Assembly (NCBI RefSeq): GCF_003841465.1
Contig: NZ_REFZ01000001.1
Coordinates: forward strand, 124,001-188,000
Reading direction: 5' to 3'
Length of the DNA stretch: 64,000 bases
From: Natrarchaeobius oligotrophus
Lineage (GTDB): Archaea; Halobacteriota; Halobacteria; Halobacteriales; Natrialbaceae
This document shows, in pieces, positions 2,681 to 7,483 of this stretch (within the stretch, counting starts at the first letter, position 1; the number at the start of each line of letters is the position of its first letter). The notes under the pieces were generated by a model. The model saw nothing but the letters and a program-made list of their open reading frames with translations, was not told the origin of the DNA and did no database searches. A program made the translations under genes and the position numbers.

Positions 2681-2711
2681 GTTATTAACATCGTCAGATT
2701 CATTACTAAAC
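2681..2711 (+). promoter_or_regulatory. promoter region with palindrome upstream of the His-rich lipoprotein gene
   Basis: A perfect 9-nt dyad GTTATTAAC (2681-2689) lies upstream of a TATA-like cattactaaac (2701-2711), which is about 34 nt from the ATG at 2740. The dyad resembles, in inverted orientation, GTTAATAAAC upstream of znuA. Binding of a metal regulator is an inference. Confidence 0.4.
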
Positions 2712-2739: not shown

Positions 2740-3750
2740 ATGACTGACAGACAGGGACTGACGTCCCGCCGATCGCTGCTCGCGACGACCGGCTCGCTCA
2801 CTGCACTCGGTATCGCCGGCTGCGTCGGCGACGACAACGGTGACGGCGGTGACGACGACGATCACGATCACGGAGACGATCACGACGACGACCACGACCA
2901 CGACGACGATCACGATCACGACGACGATCACGATCACGACGACGATCACGATCACGACGACGACCACGACCACGATCACGGCGACGTTCACGACGAGATT
3001 GGAATCGCCGAATTCGAGGTACTCGACCGCGATCACGACGAGGAGGTGCTGGTCTACATCCACGGCGACCACTGGCACGGCGATCCGCTCGAGGTCCCCC
3101 ACGGCGACAACCTCTCGCTCGGCGCGTTCGTCGAGGACGAAGACGGCGACGAGGTCGAACTCGGCGACGACGGCTACGAGCTGTACGCCGAGGCGGCCGA
3201 CGGCGTGAGCGTCGACGGCCACGGCGACCACGTCCACGTCCACGGCGAAGAGGAGGGCTTCACCGAGATCACCTTCCAGCTGCTCGACGACGGCGACGTC
3301 GCCTACGAGTCGCCGGAGCTCGAGGTCGCGGTCGACGACCACGACGACCACGATCACGGCCACGATCACGGCGAGGTCGAGGAGCTGAAGATCCTGGACC
3401 GGGCCGAGGACCCCCACGAGCAGGTCGCGGAGTTCCACGACGACCACTGGGACGGCGAACTCCCGCACGTGCACGTCGACGACAACGTCTCGCTGGGCGC
3501 GGAGTTCTACGACGACCACGGCGACGAGATCCCCATCGGCTCGAGCGAGGAGTACGAACTCGGCGTCCGCGTCGCCGACGACGCCGAGGAGGGCGTCGTC
3601 GAGATCGACGAGAACGACGACTTCCACGGCGACCACGTCCACATCCACGGCGTCGAAGAAGGCGAGACGGAGGTCGTCTTCATGCTCTGGCACGACGACC
3701 ACGCAGACTGGGAGAGCGATCCGATCGCGATCGAGGTCGAAGACCACTAA
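2740..3750 (+). CDS. His/Asp-rich Tat lipoprotein with two zinc-locus-specific domains
   Basis: This 336-residue protein has a twin-arginine signal (SRRSLLATTG) and lipobox (GIAGC, Cys28), so it is predicted to be exported folded and anchored outside the membrane. Residues 41-84 are an almost pure His/Asp tract encoded by tandem codon repeats. Two copies of a roughly 110-residue domain follow (about 88-198 and 214-333), each with an early HGDHWHG/HDDHWDG motif and a late GDHVHVHG/GDHVHIHG motif. A second short His/Asp linker (199-211) separates them. The same domain is inserted in ZnuA encoded just downstream. His clusters and context suggest extracellular zinc capture or buffering for the ZnuABC importer; this is inferred, as no known enzyme motif is present. 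Confidence 0.8.
   Translation: MTDRQGLTSRRSLLATTGSLTALGIAGCVGDDNGDGGDDDDHDHGDDHDDDHDHDDDHDHDDDHDHDDDHDHDDDHDHDHGDVHDEIGIAEFEVLDRDHDEEVLVYIHGDHWHGDPLEVPHGDNLSLGAFVEDEDGDEVELGDDGYELYAEAADGVSVDGHGDHVHVHGEEEGFTEITFQLLDDGDVAYESPELEVAVDDHDDHDHGHDHGEVEELKILDRAEDPHEQVAEFHDDHWDGELPHVHVDDNVSLGAEFYDDHGDEIPIGSSEEYELGVRVADDAEEGVVEIDENDDFHGDHVHIHGVEEGETEVVFMLWHDDHADWESDPIAIEVEDH
2851..2981 (+). repeat. in-gene tandem repeat encoding a His/Asp tract
   Basis: Imperfect tandem copies of an 18-nt unit (GACGACGATCACGATCAC and variants) encode residues about 38-80 of the lipoprotein. Most variation between copies is at third positions (gat/gac, cac), so selection for the His/Asp composition rather than for the DNA itself is likely. 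Such tracts expand and contract by slippage. Confidence 0.8.
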
Positions 3751-3874
3751 CCCGCGCGAGCTCGCTGGCCGAGCGGCCGGCGGTTTGCAACAGCACGGAC
3801 GGAATCGCCATCTCGCCGTTACTTCTTCCACCAGAGCCTGCCGTTACTAGCGCCGCGAGGTGAAGCCACTATGA

Positions 3875-3913
3875 GTTAATAAACTATGGCCCCCACATAA
3901 TAATACTTTTATT
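3875..3913 (+). promoter_or_regulatory. znuA promoter and candidate metal-regulator operator
   Basis: GTTAATAAAC (3875-3884, inside AGTTaataAACT) precedes an AT-rich stretch and a TATA-like cttttatt (3906-3913), centred about 26 nt before the znuA ATG. The transcript is therefore probably leaderless. The semi-palindrome is close to the complement of the GTTATTAAC dyad upstream of the His-rich lipoprotein gene. Confidence 0.45.
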
Positions 3914-3934
3914 CGTCGACCCGTACTGTCTCGT

Positions 3935-5335
3935 ATGAACCTCTCACGCCGTTCGATGCTGAAAGTCGGTGGCGCGTCGCTCGTCGGAAGCGCGGCCGCC
4001 GGCTGTTTGAGCGAGCCCGGCGGAGACGCCGGGAACGGCGACGCGACGCCGGAAGGATACGCCGCATTTTTCACGCTCTGGGACTGGGCGGAACAGATCA
4101 CCGGCGACGCGATGTCGTTCGAAAACCCGATCGAGGCGGGCGAGATGGGCCACGGTTGGGAGCCGCCGGCCGACATCCAGCGTGACATCGCCGGAACGGA
4201 CGTCTTCGTCTACCTCGACACCGCCGAGTTCTCGTGGGCCCAGGACGTCGCCTCCGATCTCGAGAGCGACACGGACGTCGCGCTGATCGACGGGATGGCC
4301 GGCCTCGAGGGCGACCTGCTCCCCATCGACCGGGGGGTGGACGACGACCGCGAGCCCGACGACGACCACGAGTTCGACCTCGACGACCTCTCGATCGCGG
4401 CGTTCGACGTGTACGACCGCCAGCGCGGCACCGAGGTCGCGTACTGGCACGGCGACCACTGGCACGGCAGCCTCCCGGACGTTCCACTCGACGGCTCCGC
4501 CGCCGTCGAGGGCGTCTTCGAAGACGGCGAGGGACGCGTCCTCCCGCTCGGCGAGAACGAACAGTTTCAGCTCGACGCCACGTTTCCCGACCTGGCGGAG
4601 GGCGACGTCGTCGAGATCGAGTCCCGCGGCGACCACGTCGTCTTCCACGGTCTGCGGGTCGACACGGATCGAGTCGTCTTCGAACTCGTCTCGGACGGCG
4701 AGGTCGTCTGGGACACCGGCGAAGACAACATGACGATCGAAGTCGTCGAGGAGATCGACGAGGACGACGCTCCGGACTTCTACGATCCGCACGTCTGGGT
4801 CGATCCCGTTCTCGCACAGGAGGTCGTCGAAACGATCGCCGACGGTCTCGCACGGATCGATCCGGACAACGCCGAGACCTACGAGGAGAACGCAGCCGCC
4901 TACGCGGATCGTCTGGCGGCGGTCGACGACCAGCTCGAAGAACTCGCCGCCGAGGCCGACCGCGACGTGGCCGTCCTCGCGGGCCACGACTCGTTCCAGT
5001 ACATCGAACACCGGTACGGATTCGAGCTTCACACGCCGGTCGGTATCTCGCCGGACGCCGCCGAGACCGAGTCCGACATCGCCGAGACGATCGAGATCGT
5101 CGAGGAACACGACATCGAGACCATTCTCTACGACCCGTTCGAGACGCCGAACCCCGACGAGGTTCCGCAGATGGTCGAGCTACTGCTCGAGAACACGGAC
5201 GCCACCGATTACGCGCCGCTCAGTCCGGCCGAGGGAACGACCAGCGAGTGGAACGAGCGGGGCTGGGGCTGGATCGAACAGATGGAAGAGCTGAATATTC
5301 CGTCGCTGCGAAACGCCCTGGGAGCAGCGCAATGA
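3935..5335 (+). CDS. znuA: zinc ABC transporter substrate-binding lipoprotein with an inserted domain
   Basis: This 466-residue cluster A-I binding protein (ZnuA type) has a Tat motif (SRRSMLKVGG) and lipobox (AAGC, Cys24). Candidate ligands are His73 in GHGWEP, His286 in YDPHVWVDP, and the His in LAGHDSFQYIEH, with a late acidic site near ILYDPFETPNP. Typical ZnuA proteins carry a flexible His-rich loop just before DPHxW. Here that position (about 152-271) holds a whole domain with HGDHWHG and GDHVVFHG motifs, homologous to the two domains of the neighbouring lipoprotein, and the protein is correspondingly long. The protein should deliver Zn2+ (possibly Mn2+) to the ZnuB/ZnuC importer. Confidence 0.88.
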   Translation: MNLSRRSMLKVGGASLVGSAAAGCLSEPGGDAGNGDATPEGYAAFFTLWDWAEQITGDAMSFENPIEAGEMGHGWEPPADIQRDIAGTDVFVYLDTAEFSWAQDVASDLESDTDVALIDGMAGLEGDLLPIDRGVDDDREPDDDHEFDLDDLSIAAFDVYDRQRGTEVAYWHGDHWHGSLPDVPLDGSAAVEGVFEDGEGRVLPLGENEQFQLDATFPDLAEGDVVEIESRGDHVVFHGLRVDTDRVVFELVSDGEVVWDTGEDNMTIEVVEEIDEDDAPDFYDPHVWVDPVLAQEVVETIADGLARIDPDNAETYEENAAAYADRLAAVDDQLEELAAEADRDVAVLAGHDSFQYIEHRYGFELHTPVGISPDAAETESDIAETIEIVEEHDIETILYDPFETPNPDEVPQMVELLLENTDATDYAPLSPAEGTTSEWNERGWGWIEQMEELNIPSLRNALGAAQ

Positions 5336-5591
5336 TCCCGTCGAACCGGAAGCGGCTGCGAGATCGCCGACGTCCGTTCCTCCGCCATCGTGGCTCCGGC
5401 GAATCGCCGGCGATCGCCCCTCGAGTCGGCGAACGCCTTCGAAACGGATCGACGATCGGAGGCGGACCGCGAGTCGAGGCGACGCCTCGAGCCGACACAA
5501 CGCGATCGCCTCGAGCCTTCCCACGCCGAGCGCTTCGAACCGAAGTGGAAGAACTAAGCCCGCCGGGGTCCCAAACTGGAGTGAGTTCACA
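5336..5591 (+). other. znuA-znuC spacer with an uninformative open frame
   Basis: A frame starting at the ATG overlapping the znuA stop (5332) stays open to 5595, but its 87-residue product is Arg/Pro/Ser-rich with no motif, so it is not called as a gene. The spacer contains repeated cctcgag words and no clear terminator, so znuA and znuCB may still be one transcript. Confidence 0.4.
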
Positions 5592-6332
5592 GTGACCGCC
5601 GTCGTCGACGTCCGAAACGTATCGTTTTCCTACGGAGAGCAACCGGCACTCGAGGACGTCTCGCTGACCGTCGAGTCGGGGGACTTCCTCGGGCTGATCG
5701 GCCCGAACGGATCGGGGAAGACGACGCTGTTGCACGTCATGCTCGGACTGACTCGCCCGGACGCCGGCTCGGTCGAACTGTTCGGCCAGCCGGTCGACGC
5801 CTTCGACCAGGGTGAACGGATCGGCTACGTCTCCCAGAAGGCGACCAGTCAGGATAGCACGATGCCGGTCACCGTCCGCGAGTGCGTCAGGATGGGCCGG
5901 TTCGCTCACGTCGGTCACTCGCGGCTCGACGACGAGGACCGCGAAATCGCCGAGGACGCCCTCGAGACGGTGGGGATCTCGGACCTCGCCGATCGACGCA
6001 TCAACCAACTCTCGGGCGGCCAGCGTCAGCGGGCGTACATCGCACGCGCGCTCGCCTCCGAGGCCGACCTCCTTGCGCTCGACGAGCCGACCGTCGGCGT
6101 CGACGCCGAATCGCGGGACGCGTTCTACCGGCTGCTCGATTCGCTCAACGAGTCGGGCATCACCATCATCCTCATCGAACACGACATCGGCGTCGTCACC
6201 GACCGCGCCAACCGCATCGCCTGCATCAACACGAAGCTGTACCACCACGGCGACACCGACTCGTTCGTCGAGAGCGACGCCCTGAGCGAAGCCTACGGCA
6301 CGACCGGGACCGTCGTCCACCACCACCACTGA
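5592..6332 (+). CDS. znuC: zinc ABC transporter ATP-binding protein
   Basis: This 246-residue ABC ATPase shows Walker A (GPNGSGKTT), the signature LSGGQRQR, Walker B (LLALDEPT) and the H-loop (IIL-IEHD). It ends in four consecutive His residues, a common feature of ZnuC-type proteins. It energises import of the metal delivered by ZnuA through the ZnuB permease on the inner face of the membrane. The start is a GTG at 5592 (VTAVVDVRNVSFSYG). The stop codon overlaps the ATG of the permease gene by one base (TGATG), indicating tight translational coupling. Confidence 0.93.
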   Translation: MTAVVDVRNVSFSYGEQPALEDVSLTVESGDFLGLIGPNGSGKTTLLHVMLGLTRPDAGSVELFGQPVDAFDQGERIGYVSQKATSQDSTMPVTVRECVRMGRFAHVGHSRLDDEDREIAEDALETVGISDLADRRINQLSGGQRQRAYIARALASEADLLALDEPTVGVDAESRDAFYRLLDSLNESGITIILIEHDIGVVTDRANRIACINTKLYHHGDTDSFVESDALSEAYGTTGTVVHHHH

Positions 6333-7483
6333 TGAGTCGGTCAGACGAACGCGCCGCGGAGTCGACCGCCGTCGCCGAGAGTGCGCGGTATCGACGCGAA
6401 TCGGTCGACCTTCGGCGAACGCTCGAGGTGGTCGGCGTCTCGCTCGTCGGCGTCCTCGGCGCGCTGATGATCGGGTTCGTCGCCCTCGACTGGATCCGCC
6501 ACTATCCCTACGCGGGAACGGTTCCGGGCCTCGAGACGCTGTACGCCGTTACGCAAATCGATCCGGCGGCCGGCGTCCTCTTCGAGCAGGTGCTGATCGC
6601 CGGCATGTGGGTCGATCACTTCCTCGGGACGAACGTCTTCCAGCACGCGTTCATGTGGCGGTCGATCGCCACCGGCGTTCTCGTCGGCATCGTCGCGCCG
6701 CTGGTCGGAACGTACCTCGTCCACCGGCAGATGGCGCTGATCGGGGAGACGCTCGCACACACCGCGTTCGCCGGGGTCGCGATCGGCCTGCTCGTCACCG
6801 CCGTGATCGGGTTCGACGGCTCGCTGTTGTTCGTCGCCCTGGTCGTGAGCATCCTCGGCGCGCTCGCGGTACAGTGGCTATCCGAGCGGACGAGCACGTT
6901 CGGCGACGTGCCGATCGCGATCATGCTCGCCGGGAGTTTCGCGGTCGGCACGCTGCTGATCAGCTGGGGGCGCGGGTTCATGTCGGTCGCGATCGACATC
7001 GAAGGGTTCCTGTTCGGGAGCCTCGCCGTCGTCACCGCCGACGGCGCGCGGATGATGGCCGTTCTCAGCGTCGCGGTCGTCGCGATCGTCGCCTACACGT
7101 ACAAACAGCTGCTGTTCATCACGTTCGACGAGCAGGCGGCTCGCGTCGCACAGCTCAACGTCTCGGGGTACAACACCCTGCTCGTCGTCATGACAGCCGT
7201 CGTGGTCGTCGGCGCGATGCAGGTCCTTGGCGTGATCCTCGTCGCCGGCATGCTCGTGATCCCCGTCGCTGCCGCCTCGCAGGTCGCGAGGAGCTTTCGC
7301 GAGACGCTGTACCTCTCGATCCTGATCGGCCAGGCGTCGATCCTCGGCGGCTTCGCGTTCGCGATCGGGCTGAGCCTCCCCTCGGGCGGATCGATCATCG
7401 TCGTCGCCATCCTGTTCTACCTGCTCTCGATCGCCCTCTCGATCCTCTCCGATCGCTCGAGCGCCGCCATCTCGATGCACTGA
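6332..7483 (+). CDS. znuB: zinc ABC transporter permease
   Basis: This 383-residue ABC-3 family permease (PF00950) has eight or nine hydrophobic segments. Landmarks are 'QHAFMWRSIATGVLVGIVAPLVGTYLVHRQMALIGE' (the conserved start of the permease core), 'GETLAHTAFAGVA', and 'GAMQVLGVILVAGMLVIPVA'. An N-terminal extension of about 100 residues carries one extra hydrophobic segment before the core, longer than in bacterial ZnuB. The ATG overlaps the znuC stop by one base, so the two are coupled. It forms the membrane channel for metal taken from ZnuA. Confidence 0.92.
   Translation: MSRSDERAAESTAVAESARYRRESVDLRRTLEVVGVSLVGVLGALMIGFVALDWIRHYPYAGTVPGLETLYAVTQIDPAAGVLFEQVLIAGMWVDHFLGTNVFQHAFMWRSIATGVLVGIVAPLVGTYLVHRQMALIGETLAHTAFAGVAIGLLVTAVIGFDGSLLFVALVVSILGALAVQWLSERTSTFGDVPIAIMLAGSFAVGTLLISWGRGFMSVAIDIEGFLFGSLAVVTADGARMMAVLSVAVVAIVAYTYKQLLFITFDEQAARVAQLNVSGYNTLLVVMTAVVVVGAMQVLGVILVAGMLVIPVAAASQVARSFRETLYLSILIGQASILGGFAFAIGLSLPSGGSIIVVAILFYLLSIALSILSDRSSAAISMH

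Follow-up and report, generated by a model that had tools for sequence, protein, structure and literature searches.

The locus described here raises the question of why a ZnuA-type metal receptor and the histidine-rich lipoprotein encoded just before it should share a domain, and what that domain might contribute to metal uptake. The two genes lie in the stretch of 64,000 nucleotides that we analysed (the window), positions 124001-188000 of contig 1 of a 4.61 Mb haloarchaeal genome, at the places given for them in an earlier note on this DNA; except where stated, every feature below is on the plus strand. The first gene (2740..3750) encodes a TAT lipoprotein of 336 amino acids with 42 His and an RRS...GIAGC signal, which matched no Pfam or NCBIfam family. 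A His/Asp-rich linker apparent in the sequence, (HDDDHD)n (2851..2991), presumably disordered, leads from the lipid anchor to copy A of the domain (residues 85-200; 2992..3339; motifs HGDHWHG and GDHVHVHG), which is followed by copy B (residues 209-335; 3364..3744; HDDHWDG and GDHVHIHG). The second gene (3935..5335) encodes ZnuA, a zinc/metal substrate-binding TAT lipoprotein of 466 amino acids (PF01297) with a third copy inserted at the position of the His-loop (residues 150-269; 4382..4741). ZnuC, the importer ATPase (5592..6332; ABC_tran, E 2.6e-34; best NCBIfam matches AztA and MntA), and ZnuB, the permease (6332..7483; ABC-3, E 3.2e-54; best NCBIfam match AztB), follow, and znuA, znuC and znuB form one operon, 3935-7483. 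As for the substrate, the best NCBIfam matches fall in zinc (AztC, AdcA) and manganese (MntC) families, each below its cut-off.

The earlier note had claimed that two segments of the lipoprotein and one of ZnuA are copies of a single domain, and this observation is confirmed. A genome-wide search with ZnuA as the only query brought up the two lipoprotein copies as well (E 1e-10 and 3e-10), the three copies, of about 115 residues, aligned locally in pairs with scores of 182-219 where shuffled sequences averaged 41-54 (Z 17.6-18.3), and their predicted strands run in matching order. Sequences this rich in His and Asp might resemble each other by chance, and we ruled this source of similarity out: the copies still scored Z 12-22 against each other with all H, D and E masked, and the match is therefore no artefact of composition. 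The limits given above are profile-defined and differ from those first proposed by only a few residues.

Structure prediction of both proteins, one of the checks that the same note had called for, was carried out with AlphaFold2 on alignments of 33-34 natural relatives. The models reached a mean pLDDT of 92.9 in the lipoprotein domain pair and 88.9 in ZnuA, and have an identical strand order in all three copies. Foldseek and VIA-align placed the domain among Ig-like sandwiches of the Big_2/filamin type, with S-layer SbsC, Sap, invasin and filamin as neighbors. The model of the whole lipoprotein pair reached Z 8-9 against Ig-like structures with a high rmsd because two domains are joined in it, while single-domain matches gave Z 6-7.4 at an rmsd of ~2.7-3.8, in a range (under ~8-9) where Z can mean merely a common arrangement. 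The predicted Ig-like match is modest, and it says nothing on function.

The domain falls outside all Pfam and NCBIfam models, whether whole proteins or 21 members individually were searched, and PDB sequence searches gave no credible match; the one PDB profile match, to 8x33, an unrelated precorrin-isomerase construct (E 0.005), involved 30 residues around FWHHDHW and was taken as chance. Among the named families that might have accounted for it, ZinT gave no Pfam match at E up to 10 with whole proteins or up to 1 with the 21 members, Big_2 matched 0 of the 21 at E up to 1, Strep_his_triad matched only 2 of them, weakly (best E 0.009), and AztD had no NCBIfam match among the proteins of the window. 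The idea of a folded, His-bearing domain from outside the catalogued families thus holds, in that the models are of high confidence and a named family match is lacking, and the domain is a genuine uncatalogued family. We propose for it the pattern HxxHW(H/D), D..G, HGDHxH and GxxxGxT over ~115 residues. Copies A and B conform to this pattern along their full length; the ZnuA copy of the window retains HGDHWHG and GDH, has V in place of the last His of HGDHxH, and deviates at GxxxGxT (GLRVDTD).

The receptor itself is clearly recognizable. ZnuA matched PF01297 at E 4.7e-44 (151 bits, cut-off 29), and its two-lobed model aligned with Lmb, AztC, MntC and AdcA at Z 27-31 over 250-280 residues; given that this alignment extends across the insert, the domain interrupts an otherwise normal receptor. 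The three metal-ligand histidines (mature positions 50, 263 and 328) are invariant in 33 sequences. The insert ends just before YDPHVW, and at the same place AdcA carries a short segment, GDHDH, ahead of FDPHVW, which bears out the proposal that the domain occupies the His-rich loop position. A second ZnuA of the same genome has a short, nearly His-free loop and no domain. In the ZnuA of Haloarcula halophila and Halorubrum ezzemoulense (L107:2489-4075 and L108:2489-4057; also L133, L134 and L135) the same loop holds another insert, WEWxGLYHLEAGTYTY..., with His-rich flanks; this insert, too, occurs as a free His-rich lipoprotein, and a Pfam search with it matched no family. The ZnuA His-loop seems to be a hot spot for insertion. 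Because one genome has ZnuA proteins with and without the domain, and other haloarchaea have a different insert there, these receptors constitute a natural experiment on what the loop does.

In a profile search of 199 relatives the domain was present in 76, and the loci fetched from it were pairs of a His-rich lipoprotein with 1-3 copies and a ZnuA with one. The two genes are linked in nearly all haloarchaeal relatives. Natronococcus relatives have a third gene upstream, for a small lipoprotein with a His-poor copy of the domain (1-3 His; L041:4010-4489, also L042, L043, L047 and L056), possibly a degenerate or non-metal version. A scan of GTDB gave 71 loci with organism names and 107 domain proteins altogether. 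The archaeal hosts include Natrialbaceae, Halorubrum alkaliphilum and vacuolatum, Thermoplasmata and methanogens; the bacterial ones include Izimaplasma/Mollicutes, Syntrophomonadaceae, Natroniella, Tindallia, Myxococcales, Gemmatimonadetes, Nitriliruptoria and Lujinxingia. Spread on known plasmids was ruled out: the lipoprotein domains had no match in 72,556 plasmid records, and ZnuA matched 55 records, none over 80% of the query.

An importer accompanies the domain at 54 of the 71 GTDB loci, a Znu operon at 46 of them and CbiMQO at 8; the DNA examined at the other 17, where some contigs end, showed none. The domain thus follows metal importers and not zinc alone. Within ZnuA it is found in the loop, sometimes in tandem, or at the C-terminus, as in Thermoplasmata. 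In Bacillota a domain lipoprotein is encoded between CbiQ-CbiO and CbiM, in one case with CbiX and CbiD nearby, and in a methanogen (recognized by McrA) the domain lies between cobalamin-synthesis genes and CbiM. The interpretation in the earlier note survives in part: the placement of the domain in ZnuA and its duplication in the partner lipoprotein are supported, but the CbiMQO and cobalamin operons of Bacillota and the methanogen carry the domain as well, and a restriction to zinc is not supported. A gene of a Nitriliruptoria MAG (L099:5842-7482) joins the domain to an AztD-like chaperone for zinc (NCBIfam E 5e-28, under the curated cut-off); this gene adjoins those for a domain lipoprotein and, downstream, a domain-free ZnuA. 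Natroniella acetigena has the domain in a ZnuA loop, together with znuC, znuB and a Fur-family regulator, possibly Zur (L113:5522-9398), and a separate copy in a cobalt-transport region (L077). Large surface proteins of ~760-1050 amino acids carry two or three copies (L086:4795-7941, L114, L115, L116 and L117); several precede a second long secreted protein (with PKD and CARDB domains in L115), and they are often encoded near ZnuA or CbiMQ.

Our preferred reading, to which we give a probability of about 0.62, is that the domain captures metal outside the cells of haloalkaliphiles and passes Zn or Co on to importers; metal binding, hand-over and an advantage at high pH are what we infer in it. 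The domain would be a portable unit, an Ig-like beta-sandwich bearing the HxxHW(H/D) hairpin and the HGDHxH strand. Zn2+ outside the cell would be caught by the membrane-tethered lipoprotein with its two domains and His/Asp-rich arm, the copy in the ZnuA His-loop would receive or concentrate the metal next to the ZnuA cleft, and ZnuBC would then import it; beside CbiMQO the same unit would serve cobalt. Besides the loop copies, the copies at the ZnuA C-terminus, in the AztD-like fusion, in CbiMQO and cobalamin operons and, in Natroniella, near a Fur-family regulator likewise indicate metal uptake. Capture by the lipoprotein and receipt by the loop domain are proposed because AztD, Pht and ZinT partners serve cluster A-I receptors. 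Haloalkaliphiles would be the main group to retain and spread the module, since carbonate, hydroxide and sulfide are expected to make free transition metals scarce in their surroundings.

The conservation of the two motifs bears directly on this proposal. In an alignment of 152 copies, His fills the positions of HxxHW(H/D) in 91, 96 and 81% and W is present in 98%, while the GDH of the second motif has His in 84%. In the ZnuA-loop copies the HxxHW(H/D) positions are 100, 100 and 95% His and the second motif is partly gone, with His in 65% at GDH and in 28% at the HVH position. As far as residue conservation can tell, this pattern agrees with a single essential metal site, located in the hairpin, and a second site that carries more weight in the free lipoproteins. 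Given that the second motif is partly lost from the ZnuA-loop copies, those copies may bind weakly or may serve docking. It is accordingly reasonable to ask whether the homologous Ig-like domains mainly bring lipoprotein and ZnuA together as a docking pair, the metal being carried by the ZnuA cleft and the (HDDDHD)n arm. The Ig-like fold is a common docking fold, the ZnuA copies keep their folding residues while their second His motif is degraded, and the AztC loop at the same position docks into AztD (PMC7463823). On the other hand, the first His motif is the best-conserved part of the ZnuA copies, which docking alone does not demand, and beside CbiMQO the domain occurs alone, with no domain-bearing binding protein seen there, so that we consider docking as the main role unlikely.

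The DNA upstream of the two genes offers a further indication of their connection. A palindrome-like element lies ahead of each start codon, at a distance of 59 bases for the lipoprotein (GTTATTAAC, 2681..2689, no strand assigned) and of 60 bases for znuA (GTTAATAAA, 3875..3883). Its consensus GTTAWTAAM is found at these two positions only in the 64 kb window, where 0.06 matches are expected, and GTTAWTAAC occurs in three places in the 4.6 Mb genome, one of them GTTATTAAC. Most haloarchaeal relatives have a site of this GTTA(T/A)TAAC-like type at -60 of znuA, and 31 of 54 upstream regions carry one, against 0.026 expected per region. The region upstream of the second znuA of the genome has no such site, and we rejected a wider regulon, the remaining genome sites being inside or beside genes without an evident metal role. 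Judged by its letters and position, the element may be a metal-responsive operator, for which it is a candidate, or an unusual promoter element.

The shared element is also relevant to the proposal that the lipoprotein is a metal buffer or detoxification device, which would sequester surface excess of Zn, Co, Cu or Ni, with the ZnuA copy as an overload sink. The richness of the lipoprotein in His and Asp (42 His in 336 residues) suits such a role, and His-rich surface proteins can buffer metals. However, those neighbors of the domain that were identified encode importers and a zinc chaperone, none of the loci examined had a recognizable efflux pump or resistance gene beside it, and a candidate operator common to the lipoprotein and znuA suggests co-regulation with uptake; buffering therefore appears improbable. 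Least credible is an S-layer or cell-wall Ig (Big_2) spacer that projects a metal-binding protein, its histidines incidental to a His/Asp-rich haloarchaeal surface protein. The best structural neighbors, the S-layer SbsC/Sap and invasin-type Ig domains (Z 8-9), speak for it; against it, a Z under ~8-9 can reflect a common arrangement only, the His and HW motifs are conserved also in bacteria, Thermoplasmata and methanogens, and placement in the ZnuA metal loop and beside CbiM would go unexplained.

The link of the proposed capture module to alkaline brines comes from the hosts. Thirty-nine of 65 genomes are MAGs from the Kulunda (Siberian) soda lakes, at pH ~10, and the remaining named isolates (Natrialba, Natronococcus, Natronorubrum, Natroniella) we take to be mostly haloalkaliphiles. 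The domain is in only 5 of 52 Halorubrum genomes, and the two named carriers, alkaliphilum and vacuolatum, are alkaliphiles. Of 299 genomes spread across the phylum of the Syntrophomonadaceae MAG, 4 carry the domain. For some hosts (Lujinxingia, an Odiel salt-marsh MAG and Natronococcus jeotgali) a soda-lake habitat is not clear. The Kulunda lakes gave 871 + 1032 MAGs (PMC6146748, PMC6704655), whereas the search covered 84,980 genomes, so that these MAGs amount to less than 2.5% of it. With 2.5% assumed as background the excess has a binomial probability of 2e-45, a value that ignores relatedness, treats lake MAGs as independent when they are not, and comes from a scan whose motif was seeded from haloalkaliphile sequences and is biased toward alkaliphiles. 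Because the domain stands beside the Zn and Co importers of unrelated microbes, nearly all of them from salty, alkaline lakes, it is probably a shared tool for the capture of scarce metal.

How the domain entered ZnuA was examined in a domain tree, limited by its few columns (117). The 25 haloarchaeal ZnuA-loop copies form a single clade (support 100/100), the copies from Izimaplasma ZnuA fall within a group of bacterial lipoprotein copies, and the Thermoplasmata and two Haloarculaceae copies are placed elsewhere. A one-time insertion, with all loop copies in one clade, was rejected (AU p 6e-10, lnL 182 worse, on these 117 columns). Since the loop copies are not one clade, the simplest reading is that insertion at the same ZnuA loop probably happened repeatedly, although gene conversion between neighboring copies could also have broken up a single clade. 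A broader form of the capture reading, in which one module belongs to a shared soda-lake adaptive toolkit, exchanged between archaea and bacteria, inserted repeatedly into the ZnuA loop, adopted by cobalt importers too, and passing metal from a donor domain to a homologous acceptor domain, we put forward only tentatively, at somewhat less than even odds.

Importers served by an accessory domain for metal capture are already known; the domain family and its pattern are new, and the cross-domain soda-lake distribution and the cobalt link besides zinc were unexpected. One family spans ZnuA, lipoproteins, an AztD-like fusion and the cobalt-importer operons of unrelated soda-lake organisms. We found no paper combining haloarchaea, zinc uptake and His-rich proteins, and few molecular players have been named for the acquisition of Zn and Co by haloalkaliphiles in carbonate-rich brine at pH 10, for which the domain is a concrete candidate.

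Among known systems, AdcA of Streptococcus and free ZinT likewise combine a cluster A-I receptor bearing an extra metal-binding domain with a separate extracytoplasmic protein, and the C-terminal place of ZinT in AdcA is that of the present domain in Thermoplasmata ZnuA. The ZinT domain of AdcA is stabilised also by Co and Ni, and is dispensable for import (PMC7858048), a point against the capture reading. In contrast, the domain of the window is a predicted Ig-like sandwich, inserted in the His-loop and not at the C-terminus, and duplicated in a lipoprotein. In AztABCD of Paracoccus an operon-encoded extracytoplasmic partner passes Zn through the His-loop of the receptor (PMC7463823, PMC6689063): AztD is the donor of Zn to AztC, a transfer that requires the corresponding loop of AztC (PMC7463823). 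The Nitriliruptoria fusion to an AztD-like propeller recalls this arrangement, but AztD is a beta-propeller of unrelated fold, whereas the donor and acceptor domains of the window are homologous and hand-over between them is proposed. Pht and AdcAII of Streptococcus also pair a His-rich surface protein with a zinc receptor encoded beside it, and PhtD-AdcAII has been studied for Zn transfer (PMC3842936); Pht, however, carries HxxHxH triads. Big_2, filamin, S-layer SbsC-Sap and invasin domains resemble the present domain in its predicted overall fold and in the GxxxGxT...F pattern of its C-terminal half, to which it adds the HxxHWH hairpin, the HGDHxH strand and a metal-importer context. The closest counterpart in the receptor itself is ZnuA with a disordered His-rich loop, as in Haladaptatus halobius, where the same receptor has at the same insertion site a flexible His-rich loop in place of the folded domain of the window ZnuA.
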